From positions 1-20,487 of the IMG/VR virus record IMGVR_UViG_3300024518_001705: a stretch of 20,487 bases of DNA. One strand, given 5' to 3'. The notes below the pieces were generated by a model that worked only from the letters and a program-made list of their open reading frames with translations, made no database searches and had not been told where the DNA came from. The translations under genes and the position numbers were made by a program. Shown here piece by piece: positions 2,472 through 11,751 of the stretch (position 1 is its first letter; every line of letters begins with the position of its first letter). Origin of the DNA: a virus.

Positions 2472-2740
2472 CGGTTCAAGTGACTTGCCGGATTGACGGC
2501 ACCGGCACCACGCGCACCCGCGACACGTTCACCATTCGCGCCGATGCTGATGGTGTTTTCATTGACCAATGTTGGCTTGGTTGTTCTGATGATTTCGATG
2601 AATTCACCGCGCACCTGGCGGCGGCGATTGGCGACATGAAACACGCCCGCAACGGCGGCATCAAGAAAGCGACCAAACCCAAGCAACCGAAACGCGGCAC
2701 ACCATCACAGTGGCCGAATTTGGAGCATAAGAAAGCATGA
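2468..2740 (+). CDS. small hypothetical protein between terminase and portal
   Basis: 90 residues, coupled to its neighbours by ATGA overlaps at both ends (2468-2471 and 2737-2740), which makes the start secure. The first 65 residues look like a compact beta-rich fold with two Cys in C-W-L-G-C, followed by an acidic D-D-F-D-E-F. The last 25 are strongly basic (K-K-A-T-K-P-K-Q-P-K-R), so the tail could touch nucleic acid. No family recognised. The position between terL and portal suggests a packaging or head accessory role, but that is context only. Confidence 0.65.
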   Translation: MTVQVTCRIDGTGTTRTRDTFTIRADADGVFIDQCWLGCSDDFDEFTAHLAAAIGDMKHARNGGIKKATKPKQPKRGTPSQWPNLEHKKA

Positions 2741-4005
2741 AATTGCTGAACCTGACGCCGAAACAGTTTGAGGACGTGCTTGAGGGCAAAAGTGAGTTGA
2801 CGCTTGACCGGTTAATTGAACGTTCGCTGATGGTTTCGGTGACCAATGCGGGCGAGTCAATCACGCCTGAACGCGCGTTGCAGGCACCAACGGTGTTTGC
2901 AATCGTGAATGCGTTATCAAGCATTGTTGGTTCACTGCCGTTTTCGGTTGTTTCTGATGACAGTGCTGAGGGGTTGCGGCGTCATAATTCGCAACCTGAC
3001 CATCAGGTGACGCACTTGTTGAACGTGCGACCGAATCGTTGGCAAACCCGGTTTGAGTATTGGGCGCTTGTGATGGTTCGGTTGCTGCTGTGGGGCGAGT
3101 TCTACGCACTGAAAAACGTTGCCGCCAACAAAAAGATCATGTCATTGCAACCGATTCATCCTGACAACGTTGAGGTCACGCAAGACAAGCGGTTGCGGTT
3201 ACAGTTCAAGATAACCGATGACGCTGGCGGTTCGCGCACGGTGTTCCAAGATCAAATGCACTTTATCCGTTCGGGCGTTTCGCTTGACGGTATACGCGGG
3301 CAATCGCCGGTCAGCAACATCAAGGAATCAATCGCCGTTGAGATAGCATCGGAAAAGTTCGGTGCGCGCACGTTCGGCAGCGGTGCCATTCCAAACGTTG
3401 TCATTCAGCGCAAAGGCATATTCAAAGACAATGAGGCGCGCAGCAAATTCAAACAGTCTTGGGATGCGATGTTCAGCAACAAGAAACGCGGAACCGCTGT
3501 GCTTGAAGGCGATGAATGGGAAATCACGCCTATTCAGATGACCAACGATGAAAGCCAGTATTTGCAAACGCGGAAACTGCAACGTTCGATCATCGCCGGT
3601 GCGTTCCGGGTGCCGCCGCACATTGTTGGTGACCTTGAGCGTTCAACGTTCAGCAACATCAACCAACAATCACTTGAACTGTTGACGTTGACTCTGACGC
3701 CTTGGCTTGAGTGTTGCGAACGCGCCGTTGAACGTGACTTGCTGACCAATGCAGAAGTTGATTCAGGCGTGTTCGCTCAATTCGACACCAAGCGGCTGAT
3801 GCGTGGTGACCCGGCAGCAATGGCGGATTTCATCGGCAAAATGCGTCAGTGGGGCATCATCAGCGCCAACGAAGCACGCACCATGCTTGACACTGACGGC
3901 AGAACCGATGACGCCGGTGATGATTACATTGTGCCGCTTAACTTCCAGAGTTCAGACGATACGCCCGCCGAGGATGACGCCGCACCGTTGCGGGCGGTAG
4001 AATGA
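2737..4005 (+). CDS. portal protein, HK97 family
   Basis: 422 residues, typical for the HK97 gp3-like family. It forms the dodecameric ring at one capsid vertex through which DNA enters and to which tail connectors bind. Recognisable segments are A-P-T-V-F-A-I-V-N-A-L-S-S-I-V-G-S-L-P (about 50-68), the helix W-A-L-V-M-V-R-L-L-L-W-G-E-F-Y (109-123), the A-F-R-V-P-P-H-I-V-G-D-L segment (289-300) with S-T-F-S-N-I-N-Q-Q just after it, and the stem/crown region G-D-P-A-A-M-A-D-F from 357. The C-terminus is acidic. Start and stop are both ATGA overlaps, linking it tightly to the upstream unknown gene and the downstream protease. Confidence 0.93.
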   Translation: MKLLNLTPKQFEDVLEGKSELTLDRLIERSLMVSVTNAGESITPERALQAPTVFAIVNALSSIVGSLPFSVVSDDSAEGLRRHNSQPDHQVTHLLNVRPNRWQTRFEYWALVMVRLLLWGEFYALKNVAANKKIMSLQPIHPDNVEVTQDKRLRLQFKITDDAGGSRTVFQDQMHFIRSGVSLDGIRGQSPVSNIKESIAVEIASEKFGARTFGSGAIPNVVIQRKGIFKDNEARSKFKQSWDAMFSNKKRGTAVLEGDEWEITPIQMTNDESQYLQTRKLQRSIIAGAFRVPPHIVGDLERSTFSNINQQSLELLTLTLTPWLECCERAVERDLLTNAEVDSGVFAQFDTKRLMRGDPAAMADFIGKMRQWGIISANEARTMLDTDGRTDDAGDDYIVPLNFQSSDDTPAEDDAAPLRAVE

Positions 4006-4778
4006 GAGTCACCAAGCCGAAGGAAGGCGAGGCACGCGATGATTTCGTTGCAAGGTGCATGGTTGATCTTGATGTTGTTTCTGAATTTCCTGACCGCGAG
4101 CAACGCGCGGCGGTTTGTTTCAGGCAGTTCGATGAGGGCAAAGGCATGAACTTGAAACACTTCCAATGCGGTTTAGAAGTCAAGGAAACGGATGACACCG
4201 GCATGATTGTTGGCTACGGTTCTATTTTCAACAACGTTGACCAGGGCGGCGACATAGTTGCGCCCGGCGCGTTCAAGGCGTCACTGAAAGCCCGAGGCAT
4301 GCCCGCGATGCTTTGGAGTCACAACGCGTTCACGCTGCCGGTTGGCAAATGGCATGACGCCACCGAGGATAAGAAAGGGTTGCGCCTTGAAGGCGAATTA
4401 TTCATTGATACCGAAGTTGGCAAGCACTTGCACACCGCACTTGCTGCCAAAGCGGTGACCGGTTTGAGCATCGGGTACGTTCCCGTCAAGTCAGAACTTG
4501 ACGATGACGATGACGTGCGCACGCTCAAGGAAGTTGATTTGTTTGAGGTTTCGTTTGTGAACTTTCCTATGAATGAGAGTGCCCGCGTTGAGGCGGTCAA
4601 AGCACGCTTAGGCAAAGGCGAGTTGCCAACGAAACGGATGCTTGAGGTGATTCTGCGGGATGCCGGATTCACGCGCGAGCAAAGCAAGGCGCTTATTGCG
4701 CACGGGTATGGTGGTTTGACGGCGCGGGATGATGACCGTGAAGCCTGGAATGAATTAGAAACATTGAGGTTTAATTGA
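4002..4778 (+). CDS. prohead protease with extra N- and C-terminal segments
   Basis: 258 residues. The HK97-type serine protease acts inside the prohead, cutting the capsid scaffold domain and then itself. The core (about 50-200) has the catalytic His in L-W-S-H-N (H107) and Ser in G-L-S-I-G-Y (S156), 49 residues apart, with a following E-V-S-F-V acid strand (E182 candidate). It is preceded by a 45-residue segment (E-A-R-D-D-F-V-A-R-C-M ... F-P-D-R-E-Q-R-A-A-V-C-F) of a kind I recognise in phage head modules, and followed by a small helical tail (L-R-D-A-G-F-T-R-E-Q-S-K-A-L). An in-frame ATG at 4146 with GAGGG at 4134-4138 could start a 210-residue form containing just core and tail. Start overlaps the portal stop (ATGA). 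Confidence 0.9.
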   Translation: MRVTKPKEGEARDDFVARCMVDLDVVSEFPDREQRAAVCFRQFDEGKGMNLKHFQCGLEVKETDDTGMIVGYGSIFNNVDQGGDIVAPGAFKASLKARGMPAMLWSHNAFTLPVGKWHDATEDKKGLRLEGELFIDTEVGKHLHTALAAKAVTGLSIGYVPVKSELDDDDDVRTLKEVDLFEVSFVNFPMNESARVEAVKARLGKGELPTKRMLEVILRDAGFTREQSKALIAHGYGGLTARDDDREAWNELETLRFN

Positions 4779-4779
4779 C

Positions 4780-6105
4780 ATGACGGACAAAACACCAAAA
4801 GAAATCGTTGAGGGTCTGCAAACAGATTTCAACGAATTCAAGGAAGCAAATGACGCGCGCCTTGACGCCGTTGAGAAACGGGAAGGCACCGCCGAGATTG
4901 ATGCGAAAGTTGACCGCATCAATACGTCACTGACCAACCTTGAGAAAGCCAACCAGCAAGTTGCCGCCGAAACCAAGGCGCGCGATGAGCGCATTGAGCA
5001 ACTTGAGGCGGAACTTGACCAGGCAGGCCCGGCGAACGGCAAGGCAGGAAAAGCCGCCGCCGACTACATGGAGAAGTTTGGTGATTGGATGCGAAGTGCC
5101 CGCGTTGGCGAGCAACCATCACCGGTGGTGACTCAAGCGTTGAAGGAAGCCGAAGCGGCGTTACCTGAGCATAAGCAAATCTCAGGTGCGACGGCGGCGG
5201 CTGGCGGTGCTTTGATCCCGGCGCAAATTGCCAACATCATTCACGACCAAGTGCGTGTTTTTTCACCGTTGCGTCAGTTGTGTCGCCAGGTGAACATCGG
5301 CGTGCGCACCTATGATGAGGTTGTGAACATTCACGGCGAGGCAAGTGCGTGGGTTGGTGAGGCGTCATCGCGTAGTGAGCAAAACACGCCAACGTTCCGT
5401 TCGCGTAGACCGACAATGGGCACGTTGTACACGTATCCGTTTGCGACCGAGGAAGCAATGGATGATTCCAACTATGACGTTGGCCGATTCCTTGTCGATT
5501 CAAGCGTGCAGGAATTTGCGATTGCCGAGGGCACCGCATTCTTGAGCGGCAACGGCACCAGCCGACCGACCGGCATGTTGAACACCGCGCCGCTTGCTGA
5601 CGATGACGATGCAAGCCCGCCGCGTTCTGCTGAGGCGTATGAGTTCATTCATTTGGACTTGAGTTCGCCAACCAGTGCGGTTGACCCGGATCAAATCATA
5701 CAACTGACTTATCAGTTGCGTGCCGGGTATCGTCAGGGTTCATCGTTCGCAATGAACAGCACCGTGGGCGCGACCATTCGCAAGTTGAAGCAAAACAGCG
5801 AATACATTTGGTCGCCGTCATTCATCGCGGGTCAACCGTCTACGTTGGTTGGTTTCCCGGTGACGTTCATTGAGGCAATGGATAACCTGACCGCACCGAC
5901 CGGTTCGCCGTTGGTGTACACGCATCCGATCATGTTTGGTAATTTCCAAGCGGGCTATTTGATCGTTGACCGTGTTGGTTTGCGCATCACCGTTGACAAC
6001 AACATCACCGCGCCCGGATTTATCAAATGGTATATCCGCAAGCGTGTTGGCGGCATTATCCTTGACAACAACGCCGTCAAGGTTGGTCGCTACAGCGCCA
6101 CGTAA
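4780..6105 (+). CDS. major capsid protein, HK97 fold
   Basis: 441 residues. It builds the icosahedral shell. The first ~82 residues are a charged coiled coil (the delta or scaffolding domain), rich in E/K heptads. A linker follows (about 83-135, with P-A-N-G-K-A-G-K), then the shell domain opening A-A-A-G-G-A-L-I-P. Typical HK97-fold segments are A-S-A-W-V-G-E, the E-loop region with R-R-P-T-M-G-T-L, and G-N-G-T-S-R-P-T-G-M-L-N, common in this family just before the A-domain. The protease immediately upstream should remove the coiled coil at or after the linker. GAGG at 4766-4769 precedes the ATG. The end lies 6 bases before the start of the accessory cassette. Confidence 0.95.
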   Translation: MTDKTPKEIVEGLQTDFNEFKEANDARLDAVEKREGTAEIDAKVDRINTSLTNLEKANQQVAAETKARDERIEQLEAELDQAGPANGKAGKAAADYMEKFGDWMRSARVGEQPSPVVTQALKEAEAALPEHKQISGATAAAGGALIPAQIANIIHDQVRVFSPLRQLCRQVNIGVRTYDEVVNIHGEASAWVGEASSRSEQNTPTFRSRRPTMGTLYTYPFATEEAMDDSNYDVGRFLVDSSVQEFAIAEGTAFLSGNGTSRPTGMLNTAPLADDDDASPPRSAEAYEFIHLDLSSPTSAVDPDQIIQLTYQLRAGYRQGSSFAMNSTVGATIRKLKQNSEYIWSPSFIAGQPSTLVGFPVTFIEAMDNLTAPTGSPLVYTHPIMFGNFQAGYLIVDRVGLRITVDNNITAPGFIKWYIRKRVGGIILDNNAVKVGRYSAT

Positions 6106-6111
6106 TATGGC

Positions 6112-6732
6112 GTGAGTGAAGTTCCCAAAGTTTGGGAAAATGGGCGGGTCGCTTGTTTAGCAAGCGGCCCGTCATTTCATGCGGATCAGGTTGACGCGTG
6201 CCGCGCCGCCGGGTTCGGGTTGGTTGCTTGCAATGAGCAACACCAGTTCAAGCCCGATGTTTTATATGCGCCTGACCTGGCTTGGCTCAATGAGAATGAC
6301 GCCAAGATTGCAGACGGGCCGATTCTGTTGACCGCCAATGAACCGTTTGCAAAGGCACACCCGCGTTGGCAGCACATCAATTGGCGCGATGAACCTGGCA
6401 TGTCACTTGACCGGGCAATGGTTCACACCGGCAGCAACGCCGGGTTCACGTTGGTCAATCTGGCAATGTTGATGGGCGCACAAACCATCCTGTTGATTGG
6501 TTACGACATGCGCCAGGTGAACGGGGCAAGTCATTGGTTTGGCGAACACCCGCCGCACATTGACCAGGGCCGAAGCAAAGACGGCAACAAATACATCAAG
6601 TGGCACGCCAAGTTTCAGAAAGCGGTGCCGGATATTGAACGGGCGGGCGTCACGGTTATCAATTGCACGCCTGACAGTGCGTTGCCGTGTTTTCCAATGA
6701 TGCCGTTGACTGAGGCGTTGGCGACACTGTGA
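6112..6732 (+). CDS. DUF115/MptE-like or sialyltransferase-like Rossmann protein
   Basis: 206 residues, GTG start, no visible ribosome site; it begins 6 bases after the capsid stop, so reinitiation is likely. The N-terminal R-V-A-C-L-A-S-G-P-S (12-21) is the nucleotide-binding strand-loop of the DUF115/GT42-like superfamily. G-S-N-A-G-F-T-L-V-N-L-A-M-L-M-G-A (107-123) and L-L-I-G-Y-D-M (127-133) are the second hallmark, followed by H-W-F-G-E-H-P (141-147). Members include the pterin enzyme MptE, flagellin sugar-transfer factors and CMP-sialyltransferase-like enzymes. With glycosyltransferase-like and methyltransferase neighbours, a nucleotide-sugar transferase role is the best guess. The exact reaction is unknown. 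The codons for residues 11-21 lie in a strong RNA hairpin. The stop overlaps the next start (GTGA). Confidence 0.7.
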   Translation: MSEVPKVWENGRVACLASGPSFHADQVDACRAAGFGLVACNEQHQFKPDVLYAPDLAWLNENDAKIADGPILLTANEPFAKAHPRWQHINWRDEPGMSLDRAMVHTGSNAGFTLVNLAMLMGAQTILLIGYDMRQVNGASHWFGEHPPHIDQGRSKDGNKYIKWHAKFQKAVPDIERAGVTVINCTPDSALPCFPMMPLTEALATL

Positions 6733-7364
6733 AGGCGGAACGCATCACCGTTGGCGATTGCGTGTACCTATTCGACGGGCCGCGCGATGTGTTGGCGCTT
6801 GATCCGGTTGAGTCTTGGAACAACAGAAGCGACCGCGCGCCGGTATTCAAGGCGGCGCTTGATGCGGTCACGCTGCCAGGCCCGTGGGCACAGTTTGGCG
6901 TTTACCAGGGGCACACCGCCAAGCGGTTCATCATTCCGCGCCTTGGCGACCATCAGTTGTATTTGTTCGATTCGTTTGACGGGTTACCCGAGGATTGGGA
7001 CAAAGGCGCAAGCGTTGAACCGCGCGGCAAGTATGCTTGTGAACCGCCAGCGTTTAATCATTCGCGCGTCACGGTGGTCAAAGGTTTGTTTGATGGCACG
7101 GTGAACGATTTCAAAGGAACTGAGGCGTTCGGGTTCGTTGATATTGATTGTGACTTGTATAGTTCAACGTCAGAAGTGTTGACCGGCATCAATGACCTGA
7201 TTGTGCCCGGCACCGTCATTCGGTTTGACGATTTGTTTTGTTTTCCGAATTGGCGCAACGGTGAATGGCGCGCATTGAAAGAATGGTTGCGGCACTATCA
7301 ACGAGAAATCAGATGGTTGGCGCGTGGGCAAATCTATTGGGCATGTTGTGAGGTTGTGAAATGA
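6729..7364 (+). CDS. TylF/macrocin-type O-methyltransferase
   Basis: 211 residues with GTG start in a GTGA overlap with the previous gene. The family methylates sugar hydroxyls with S-adenosylmethionine and Mg2+. Motifs: Q-F-G-V-Y-Q-G-H-T-A (55-64) as a modified SAM-binding glycine loop, L-F-D-S-F-D-G-L-P-E (79-88), the metal-binding acidic strand D-I-D-C-D-L-Y-S-S-T (138-147), a further F-D-D (166-168) and G-E-W-R-A-L-K-E-W (178-186). These are the TylF/NovP family hallmarks and all are intact. Usual length is about 220-260, so this is compact. As second gene of the cassette it would methylate a sugar placed by a transferase. The acceptor (capsid, tail or host glycan) is unknown. Confidence 0.8.
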   Translation: MKAERITVGDCVYLFDGPRDVLALDPVESWNNRSDRAPVFKAALDAVTLPGPWAQFGVYQGHTAKRFIIPRLGDHQLYLFDSFDGLPEDWDKGASVEPRGKYACEPPAFNHSRVTVVKGLFDGTVNDFKGTEAFGFVDIDCDLYSSTSEVLTGINDLIVPGTVIRFDDLFCFPNWRNGEWRALKEWLRHYQREIRWLARGQIYWACCEVVK

Positions 7365-7909
7365 ACAGTGTTGATGCGGAACAAGAAAAATATAGTGCGT
7401 GCTATGCACTGGAAACCTACCACATGCAAGGCGCACGGTTGGTTCAGGTGAAACAAGATATGTTGCAACTTGAACCGGGTTGCACATACCTTGACGTTGG
7501 TTGCGGGCGCGGCGAAACCGTCAGAATGGCGCGCGAACGGAACGTTGAGGCAAGCGGGCTTGAGTTGGTGCCCGAGTTGTGCGGCGAACACATCACGCAC
7601 GGGCGCGTGACCGCCATGCCGTTTGAGGCTGACGCATTCGACGTGGTGAGTTGTTATGACATGCTTGAACACTTACCAACGGAACAGGTTGATGACGCCT
7701 TAGACGAGTTGTGGCGCGTTGCCAGGCACACGCTTGTTCTAAGCACCAACAACAAGCAATCGCGGTTGGTCACGCCTGACGGGTTTCTTGAATTGCACTT
7801 GACGCGCAAGCCACGGGCTTGGTGGCAAGAAAAGTTTGATGCCCGTGGCGGCGATATGGTTGCAAGCGAATACGGCAACGATGAATGGCATTGGCGCATT
7901 TCGTTGTAA
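7361..7909 (+). CDS. class I SAM-dependent methyltransferase
   Basis: 182 residues, ATGA-coupled to the TylF-like gene. The SAM site is the classical L-D-V-G-C-G-R-G-E (44-52), with the acidic end of strand 2 at G-L-E-L-V (66-70), D-V-V-S-C-Y-D (94-100) and the post-IV M-L-E-H-L (101-105), all typical of the Methyltransf_11/25 group. The C-terminal third (H-L-T-R-K-P-R-A-W-W) is basic and aromatic and could bind acceptor. Similar enzymes sit in cell-surface sugar clusters and methylate sugars, small molecules or proteins. The substrate cannot be read from the sequence. The next gene starts 10 bases downstream. Confidence 0.82.
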   Translation: MNSVDAEQEKYSACYALETYHMQGARLVQVKQDMLQLEPGCTYLDVGCGRGETVRMARERNVEASGLELVPELCGEHITHGRVTAMPFEADAFDVVSCYDMLEHLPTEQVDDALDELWRVARHTLVLSTNNKQSRLVTPDGFLELHLTRKPRAWWQEKFDARGGDMVASEYGNDEWHWRISL

Positions 7910-7919
7910 ACTGCCCGCC

Positions 7920-8747
7920 ATGAACGTTCATTTTCACGCAACCGCGAAACATCACACCCGGTACATGACGGCGCTTGCCAACGGGCTTGCGCGGCGCGGC
8001 ATTCAATCAACAATCAATAGCGGGTTTCTACCCGCTGACATTCTGTGCGTGTGGGGTTTCCGTAGCATACCGGCAGCGCATCAAGGCCCGGTGCTTCACC
8101 TTGAGGCCGGTTATATCAACGGCACGTCAGGCGATTACGTGCCTGACCGGTTGCGGTTCATTTCAACCAGTTGGAACGGGATGCACGGGCGCGCACAGCA
8201 CACGCCGGTTGGTGAGGTTGGGCGTTGGGTGTCGCTTGGCATCGAGGTGCATCCGTGGCGCACCGGCGGTGATTATGCGCTTGTCATTGGGCAACACCCG
8301 AATGACGGCGCGTGCGTTGGTTATGACCAAGCCAAAACCGTTGACGATTTGGTTGACCGTTCGATGATCCCGGTGAGGTTTCGGGCGCACCCGTTGATTC
8401 AACCGACCGTGCCGCTTGCTGTTGACTTGCGTGACGCGGCGTTGTGCGTGACTTGGAACAGCACCGCCGCCGTTGAGTCTGTGATTGCAGGCGTGCCGAC
8501 CGTGGCGCTTGATGCGGGTTCGATAGCGCGCCCGGTGTGTTCGCACGATATACTTGAACCGCCGGTGCGGTGTGACCGTGTGCCTTGGCTTGCTGACTTG
8601 GCATACCGGCAATGGACTGAGGCGGAATTGGCAAACGGTTTGGCATGGGAGCATTTGCGCAATGACTTGGAAACGCACCAGCGTGGTGACGGCATCAGGA
8701 GAGGAACCGGTATCGGTCGCGGAAATGCGCGACCATCTAACGCTTGA
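7920..8747 (+). CDS. GT-B-like glycosyltransferase / KpsS-like protein
   Basis: 275 residues from the ATG at 7920. An earlier in-frame ATG at 7836 would run deep into the methyltransferase and is rejected. The C-terminal half carries V-R-F-R-A-H-P (152-158) and V-T-W-N-S-T-A-A-V-E-S-V-I-A-G-V-P-T-V (177-195). This is the donor-binding signature (Ser/Thr loop, Glu, G-x-P) shared by capsule KpsS/KpsC-like and other GT-B enzymes. R-Q-W-T-E-A-E-L-A-N-G then W-E-H-L (about 230-246) looks like the natural C-terminal helices. Residues 248-275 are Gly/Arg-rich and are encoded entirely within the overlap with the connector gene, so they are probably not part of the fold. The first 12 bases of the gene form a perfect palindrome. 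Likely function: sugar transfer, substrate unknown. Confidence 0.6.
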   Translation: MNVHFHATAKHHTRYMTALANGLARRGIQSTINSGFLPADILCVWGFRSIPAAHQGPVLHLEAGYINGTSGDYVPDRLRFISTSWNGMHGRAQHTPVGEVGRWVSLGIEVHPWRTGGDYALVIGQHPNDGACVGYDQAKTVDDLVDRSMIPVRFRAHPLIQPTVPLAVDLRDAALCVTWNSTAAVESVIAGVPTVALDAGSIARPVCSHDILEPPVRCDRVPWLADLAYRQWTEAELANGLAWEHLRNDLETHQRGDGIRRGTGIGRGNARPSNA

Positions 8748-9261
8748 GATTGACGCGGATGATGCTTACCTTGAACAACTGATTGCGGCGGCGCGTGGTC
8801 ACGCTGAGAGTTTGACCAACCGCAAAATCATGGACACCGTTGTACAAATGGTGGTGCCAGATTTCCCGATCAAGCAAATTGAATTGCCGTTTGGCGCAAC
8901 CATCAGCGTGACTAGCATCGCGTATGTTGACACGGCAGGCGCAACGCAAACGCTTTTGGGTTCGGCATCACCGGCGGTGTTTCAATCTGACTTGACTGAC
9001 GATGAAGGCGCGGTGCTTTGGCCGCTGAAAGGCACCGATTGGCCCGGCGTTGATACTGATGACATTTCACCGGTCACCGTGACGTGGGTTGCCGGTTATG
9101 GCACTGATTCTGAGGATGTGCCCGCCGCGTTGCGTCACGCAATCAAGTTGCAAGTTGCCGAGTGGTATGAGGCCCGATGGAATGCGGAAGCACCAGCGGG
9201 TTCAACGCCGCTGTTTGAAATGGCGCTTTCACCGTTCAAGGTCATTCGATATGGCGCTTGA
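8662..9261 (+). CDS. head-tail connector, gp6-like
   Basis: 199 residues starting at ATG 8662 with GGGAG at 8647-8651. The upstream extension of this frame to 8554 reads as basic shadow sequence. The N-terminus G-E-E-P-V-S-V-A-E-M-R-D-H-L (13-26) and the helix D-D-A-Y-L-E-Q-L-I-A-A-A-R (33-45) are the standard opening of the HK97 gp6/gene-transfer-agent connector family. V-P-A-A-L-R-H-A-I-K-L-Q-V-A-E-W-Y-E-A-R (153-172) is the matching C-terminal helix. The protein forms the ring below the portal. It overlaps the end of the glycosyltransferase-like gene by 86 bases and the next gene by 11 bases. Confidence 0.88.
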   Translation: MTWKRTSVVTASGEEPVSVAEMRDHLTLEIDADDAYLEQLIAAARGHAESLTNRKIMDTVVQMVVPDFPIKQIELPFGATISVTSIAYVDTAGATQTLLGSASPAVFQSDLTDDEGAVLWPLKGTDWPGVDTDDISPVTVTWVAGYGTDSEDVPAALRHAIKLQVAEWYEARWNAEAPAGSTPLFEMALSPFKVIRYGA

Positions 9262-9640
9262 ACGCCCGGCAGATATTCACCGCCGCATTTCACTGCGCAA
9301 CCGGTTTCAATTCCAGTTGCCACCGACAACGCGTGACTCATTCGGTGAACGGGAAAGCGGCACGTGGGTTTCACAGTTTGAAACGCGCGGCAGATTGCGA
9401 CCGATGCGCGGCACGGTGTTCACCGAGGGTCAATCAATCAACACCGAGTTCACGCACAACATCACGTTGCGGTATCGTGCCGGGGTTCAATCCGGCATGC
9501 GCGCGGTGACTTTGAACGTTGCGGGCAAGGTTGATTCTGCCTCACGCACGTTTGATGTTCGGATTGTTGACGATGTGCAAAGCAAAGCGCGGTGGTTGAC
9601 GCTTCGTTGCGTTGAGATACCGGCAGGCGCGACGGCATAA
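9251..9640 (+). CDS. head closure / head-tail joining protein
   Basis: 129 residues from the ATG at 9251, which overlaps the connector end. The longer frame from 9089 is rejected because its first 54 residues are shadow sequence. Family signs: R-I-S-L-R-N-R-F-Q-F-Q-L near the start, T-R-D-S-F-G-E (27-33), T-W-V-S-Q-F-E-T-R-G-R-L-R-P-M-R-G (38-54), I-T-L-R-Y-R-A-G-V and the final strand R-W-L-T-L-R-C-V-E. This matches the Phage_H_T_join / SPP1 gp16-like stopper that plugs the connector after DNA packaging. Length and position directly after the gp6-like gene fit well. Confidence 0.85.
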   Translation: MALERPADIHRRISLRNRFQFQLPPTTRDSFGERESGTWVSQFETRGRLRPMRGTVFTEGQSINTEFTHNITLRYRAGVQSGMRAVTLNVAGKVDSASRTFDVRIVDDVQSKARWLTLRCVEIPAGATA

Positions 9641-11452: not shown

Positions 11453-11751
11453 ACTGGCGCATTGCCGTCAGTCTCGGGTACCCGCACCCGGACCTGATGT
11501 TTGAACAGTTGACCGCCATTCAGGCGCGCGAACTGCAAATGTATTTCTGTGCTGAACCGTTCGGTGAGTTGCGCCAGGACATGCGCACGGCGGCGGTGCT
11601 GGAAATGTACTACAACAGCAAACGCCGCAAGGGTGCCAAGGCGCTACAGTTGAGCGATTTTATTCTATACACTGACGTGGCAAAGCGAACCCGCGACAAG
11701 CGCACCGGCGCGAACCTGGCGGCGAGGCTTGACGCGATGAGTGAGGGTTGA
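11090..11751 (+). CDS. tail assembly chaperone -1 frameshift product (gpGT-like)
   Basis: Reading shifts by -1 at the heptamer A-AAA-AAC (11422-11428). The frame then stays open through the zero-frame stop at 11450-11452 to TGA at 11749-11751, giving about 220 residues. The junction reads T-A-K-K-K then L-E-T-P-E-S-R-L-N-W. The T part contains G-Y-P-H-P-D-L-M-F-E-Q-L-T and two helical segments, similar to gpT domains. There is no good ribosome site for an independent start at the internal ATG 11497, and the open frame joins exactly at the slip site. This is the conserved lambda G/GT arrangement between tube and tape measure. The fusion links tape measure to tube during assembly. Slip frequency cannot be judged from sequence. 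Confidence 0.82.
11422..11428 (+). promoter_or_regulatory. -1 ribosomal frameshift slippery site
   Basis: AAAAAAC with zero-frame codons AAA (11423-11425) and AAC (11426-11428); both tRNAs can re-pair with AAA after slipping back one base. It is part of an A8 run (11420-11427). Downstream, CGCC (11446-11449) can pair with GGCG (11456-11459), enclosed by CCCGA (11437-11441) with TCGGG (11474-11478), a possible stimulating structure. The heptamer is a classical slippery sequence; the structure is only a paper prediction. Confidence 0.8.

Follow-up and report, generated by a model that had tools for sequence, protein, structure and literature searches.

Why four genes for sugar and methyl transfer should lie between the capsid gene and the head-tail connector gene of a phage is the question raised by this locus. 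The window, which is the whole virus record of 20,487 bases, contains a standard siphovirus-type late operon, in which genes for the terminase (762-2471), portal (2737-4005) and S78 protease (4002-4778) precede that of an HK97-type major capsid protein (4780-6105, plus strand; PF05065, E 1.1e-56; phrog_10, 2.4e-61). A gp6-like head-tail connector (8662-9261; PF05135, 4.1e-9) and a head completion or closure protein (9251-9640; PF05521, 4.3e-15) are encoded downstream on the plus strand, both starts being read from the sequence, and the likely ATG of the connector lies inside the 3' end of the last cassette gene. Beyond them are tail completion and tail tube genes and a long open reading frame at 11741, which is probably the tape measure gene. 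The cassette itself runs in the direction of the head genes and comprises g1 (6112-6732, GTG start), encoding a Maf/GT42-like (DUF115-like) glycosyltransferase, g2 (6729-7364), a TylF-type O-methyltransferase, g3 (7361-7909), a class I SAM methyltransferase, and g4 (7920-8747), a GT-B enzyme similar to retaining beta-Kdo transferases. The coordinates and order in the original prediction were borne out, as were the 4-base overlaps joining its first three genes (g1/g2 at 6729-6732, g2/g3 at 7361-7364); the ATG of g4 follows 10 bases past the end of g3.

All four open reading frames have homologues in other phages, and in groups of close cassette homologues the median dN/dS of 0.09-0.21 denotes purifying selection, which indicates that they are real genes. 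Within the cassette no promoter or terminator signal exceeded the shuffled background, no tRNA or Rfam RNA was detected within the window, and a megablast search of the window against deposited phages gave no match. On balance, the cassette is probably a late-operon module by which Kdo, or a sugar related to it, is O-linked to a virion protein and then methylated.

The product of g4 had been described simply as GT-B-like, which understates the result: the only Pfam match is to DUF6716, a 'putative glycosyltransferase' (1e-4), and a profile match to KpsC (6mgc) was obtained at E 4.1e-7, the family profile against WbbB being below significance (0.07). The AlphaFold2 model has a pLDDT of 89, and all 13 Foldseek matches in the PDB at E<=1e-3 are retaining beta-Kdo transferases. 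By VIA, the Z scores were 13.3 for KpsC, 13.0 for WbbB and 10.3 for KrkA (10.2-13.3 over the Kdo-transferase matches), compared to 8.2 for the best other protein. Overall identity to KpsC is about 13-15%, and the region beyond residue ~258, which overlaps the next gene, is predicted to be disordered. The catalytic set of the retaining Kdo transferases has been defined (PMC9587256, PMC10148158, PMC12887879), and the g4 of the window keeps all four of its signature elements. Thus, Glu62 (codon 8103-8105, plus strand) aligns with the general base Glu66 of KpsC (PMC10148158), Q125xxxD129 (codons 8292-8306, plus strand) with the QxxxD nucleophile motif (KpsC Asp160, WbbB Asp232), and R155-A-H157-P158 (codons 8382-8393, plus strand) with the (K/R)xHP CMP-binding motif (PMC12887879). 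The fold and both motifs are common to g4 and families GT99 (WbbB), GT107 (KpsC) and GT140 (KrkA), and the general base is at the GT99/GT107 position. Whereas the known members of these families build capsule or O-antigen, the g4 product is short and has a single domain, and its gene lies in a phage head operon.

Across 44 relatives of g4 (set A5), the Glu is present in 43, the Gln in 39, the Asp in 33, and the His and Pro in all 44; D129 is invariant in the set A6. The nucleophile Asp is missing in 11 of the 44 and the Gln in five, and the homologue in locus L022 lacks the Glu, such that some family members may catalyse a different reaction. More distant homologues, often in tandem, were found in loci L081-L097 without the full catalytic set, and the family therefore includes enzymes of different or lost chemistry. 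Chromosomal g4 homologues also occur in Mesorhizobium and Pseudaminobacter (L178, L180), with a TylF homologue nearby on the opposite strand and no recognised phage head genes; these are perhaps cellular surface-polysaccharide loci.

The partner enzyme, g1, was modelled at a pLDDT of 94, and among known structures it most resembles the Maf flagellin glycosyltransferase (5mu5; VIA Z 14.4), followed by the GT42 sialyltransferase CstII (1ro7; VIA Z 12.2). In sequence searches g1 matched phrog_4603 (E 9.5e-33), annotated as 'alpha-2,3-sialyltransferase', while the Pfam MptE-like/DUF115 model reached only E 0.0019, below the cut-off. An assignment as an MptE-type pterin kinase was rejected on this score and on a VIA Z of 10.5, compared to that of Maf. 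In the GxGPS-type nucleotide-binding loop, G19 and S21 are invariant. The sequence match between g1 and CstII is weak (E 0.024), and the alignment does not reliably reach the position of the catalytic base, which we take to be His188 in CstII. The fold and the nucleotide loop are held in common with Maf and GT42 enzymes, and CMP-ulosonate chemistry would be expected for g1; Maf proteins, however, are about three times longer and have flagellin as their target, whereas g1 comprises the core domain only. g1 is proposed to be a CMP-ulosonate:protein transferase. The groups matched by g1 and g4 both use CMP-activated ulosonic acids, and the two domains are fused in a single open reading frame in three loci (L033, L038, L044). 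NCBIfam provided no name for g1, g2 or g4, and a related-locus search with g1 as the sole query gave no match.

Both methyltransferase assignments were sustained. The TylF model matches g2 (PF05711, 1.7e-8; 34.5 bits against a gathering score of 23) over the C-terminal part of the model only, and PF13578 matches at 1.2e-6. For g3, Methyltransf_11 (PF08241) matches at 1e-11 and no more specific family name was obtained; a g3 homologue immediately follows the capsid gene in ctUtU524. The nearest named relatives of g2 are enzymes of cluster F mycobacteriophages annotated as glycosyltransferases or methyltransferases, among them Che8 gp108 with its TylF domain, and some come from phages with reported capsid glycans. 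Glycosylation of capsid and tail-tube proteins is reported for mycobacteriophages (Che8, cluster O), and PMC11256854 and PMC11600133, both citing Freeman et al. 2023, describe virion glycosylation with an O-methyltransferase and glycosyltransferases in such phages. The Che8 system and the window are alike in combining phage glycosyltransferases with an O-methyltransferase, and in Courthouse such genes likewise lie between capsid and connector, in the order capsid, TylF, glycosyltransferase, GalT and, further on, glycosyltransferase and connector. The glycosyltransferases of Che8, Courthouse and Babsiella are nevertheless of other types, and the loci examined from these three phages showed no recognisable homologue of g1 or g4. 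Mycobacteria have no LPS. Membership of g2 in the core module was considered and rejected, for head genes were not recognised in the majority of g2 loci and most g1/g4 modules have no g2.

The survey of related phages that had been proposed as a check was performed on IMG/VR with g4 relatives, yielding 80 loci with 7 kb flanks. A capsid gene was recognised in 19 of these loci, which are not independent of one another, and in all 19 the capsid gene comes first, with the g1/g4 module beginning, according to profile searches, within about 3.4 kb downstream of it on the same strand. The flank limits the distance at which a capsid gene can be detected, and the constant side and strand are therefore the meaningful part of this result. 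The order of the module relative to the connector, closure and gp10-like genes varies among the 19. Other capsid families, as defined by PHROGs, are found upstream of similar sets: phrog_334 (L033, L038, L049), phrog_283 (L028), phrog_1328 (L050) and phrog_247 (L099, L156), the last being followed by g4-type and TylF-type genes. The module thus recurs beside at least five capsid families. Among 74 g4 members with the full catalytic set, g1 is nearby in 42 and g3 in 27. Such placement in many unrelated phages suggests decoration of the virus particle. There are exceptions: in Caulobacter Bertelyvirus the g1/g4 pair lies with an FkbM-type gene downstream of the tail fibre genes, in ct7QV12 and L075 the set is upstream of the terminase, and the g1 homologues of P1 are away from the capsid gene.

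In the related phages L014-L016 (terminase ~42% identical) the connector is 403-560 bases downstream of the capsid gene, and nothing in the interval was recognised as a gene; relative to these loci the 2.6 kb in the window is an insertion. The closest relative found (L013/L018; terminase 62%) contains g1, g3 and two copies of g4 in its head-tail block, with the connector relocated between g1 and g3, and L022 (capsid 47%) has the arrangement capsid-g1-g3-g4-connector, which is that of the window minus g2. A very large set of sugar genes occupies positions 1399-9232 of L050, flanked by the phrog_1328 capsid gene on one side and a gene for a virion structural protein on the other, and includes several glycosyltransferase-like open reading frames, methyltransferases, a cytidylyltransferase-like protein and an aminotransferase. 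A DegT-type sugar aminotransferase, confirmed by Pfam, follows g4 there, and DegT-like open reading frames were seen by inspection after g4 in L029, L034, L047, L056, L075 and L080, hinting at an amino sugar in those phage branches.

From these features we infer a donor, an acceptor, an order of reactions and a purpose for the cassette. During assembly, g1 would move a CMP-activated ulosonic acid onto Ser or Thr of a protein of the virion, for which the capsid protein encoded at 4780-6105 is the likeliest candidate; g4 would add a further Kdo-type sugar, with Asp129 as nucleophile, Glu62 as base and His157 in the CMP site; and g2 and g3 would O-methylate the sugar, perhaps protecting the particle surface or altering its binding. 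As donor the enzymes would draw on the CMP-Kdo of the host, which Gram-negative bacteria make because it is required for LPS, so that the phage would need no sugar-synthesis genes. A precedent is the co-expression of a Maf enzyme in E. coli, which placed Kdo on Ser/Thr of flagellin in +220 Da steps (PMC11339370). Hosts named among the listed g1/g4 phage matches are Gram-negative, leaving aside the Tetraselmis viruses, tailed phages that bear an algal label; of 12 genome loci, 11 belong to lineages usually counted as Gram-negative and one is an Anaerolineae MAG contig. The argument for virion modification, beyond the use of CMP-ulosonates, is derived from the genome position and the mycobacteriophage precedent. 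Virion glycosylation and methylation, as originally predicted, is the best-supported reading in view of the capsid families and the g2 relatives, yet the hexose mass steps predicted with it give way, owing to the g4 match, to steps of +220 Da (Kdo) and +14.

The virion could be the target and the sugar a different one, with g1 and g4 retaining their fold while acting on another CMP-sugar, be it that of sialic, pseudaminic or legionaminic acid or of 8-amino-Kdo, or on a donor of some unrelated kind. CMP-Neu5Ac is the donor of GT42 enzymes and nonulosonates are the sugars of Maf enzymes, the aminotransferase of L050 and the similar frames elsewhere would fit an amino sugar, and QxxxD is lost in part of the g4 family. 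Nonulosonates, however, are not universal, no sugar-nucleotide synthesis gene was recognised in the window, and the complete Kdo-transferase signature of its g4 argues for Kdo, such that another donor appears rather unlikely.

The target might instead be the host surface, with Kdo and methyl groups placed on the LPS core or O-antigen and blocking superinfection or re-adsorption to debris. In its favour, capsule and O-antigen are the targets of the known g4 relatives, KpsC and WbbB, and phage D3 is known for serotype conversion, although by other genes. The cassette is nonetheless embedded in a late head operon, its genes overlap, and promoter signals inside it did not exceed chance; neither a flippase nor any other membrane gene was recognised in its neighbourhood, its placement is repeated across the capsid families, and the closest TylF relatives come from phages with reported capsid glycans. 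A host-surface target is therefore quite unlikely. It is very improbable that the capsid-connector junction is a moron hotspot which tolerates insertions of enzymes with no virion role, for instance metabolic or DNA-related ones; the shifting position of the module relative to the connector and closure genes would agree with this, but the same families occur together, at times fused, their homologues are under purifying selection, and a defence role was rejected, PADLOC having given only a weak methyltransferase-domain match. Modification of the virion with Kdo or a related sugar remains the preferred reading.

More tentatively, and with somewhat less than even confidence, Gram-negative phages may widely hold a head-operon module that O-glycosylates virion proteins with host CMP-Kdo, by means of a phage-specific family of retaining Kdo transferases and a Maf-like partner. 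Many such phages would then coat their particles with an acidic sugar from LPS synthesis, Kdo being one of the components from which bacteria build their outer membrane. This would bear on how antibodies and receptors see phage particles, give the retaining Kdo transferases a phage branch, supply tools in the form of small cytoplasmic protein-Kdo transferases, and explain the unassigned 'sialyltransferase' genes of D3, PAJU2 and P1. The cassette belongs with phage virion glycosylation and is thus not categorically new, and its position is not unique to the window, comparable sets being present in D3, Tetraselmis virus S20 and Courthouse. What is new is the assignment of g4 to the retaining Kdo transferases, as a branch encoded by phages, and its pairing with a Maf/GT42-like enzyme, repeatedly beside capsid genes. 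Among open-licence papers, none was found to deal with phage DUF115 proteins or with Kdo transferases of phages, nor was there any description of the g1/g4 pair beside capsid genes.

In S20, numerous genes for sialyltransferases, glycosyltransferases and methyltransferases lie between capsid and head closure, and in Pseudomonas D3 the g1 homologue orf7 is situated between capsid and adaptor; no g4 homologue was found at maximum sensitivity in the D3, PAJU2, P1 or S20 loci. D3 orf7, PAJU2 ORF010 and P1 PmgO are phrog_4603 proteins of the same family as g1, and their annotations in the deposited records are by similarity or 'putative' only. D3 orf12 and PAJU2 gp11 (L003 7748-9143 and L002 6543-7935; 275 aa, no Pfam match) are encoded beside a methyltransferase gene downstream of head closure and may represent a further unrecognised glycosyltransferase; a heptosyltransferase assignment for orf12, based on a resemblance by eye, was dropped since no Pfam match was obtained. 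PAJU2 ORF010 (L190 1492-2061) is deposited as a 'structural protein', and if this label derives from an analysis of virions, the particle may carry the enzyme with it. P1 has, adjoining PmgO, a further and distant relative in the g1 family, PmgP (L007 4498-5124), matched with E 1.9e-11 when the search was run at maximum sensitivity.
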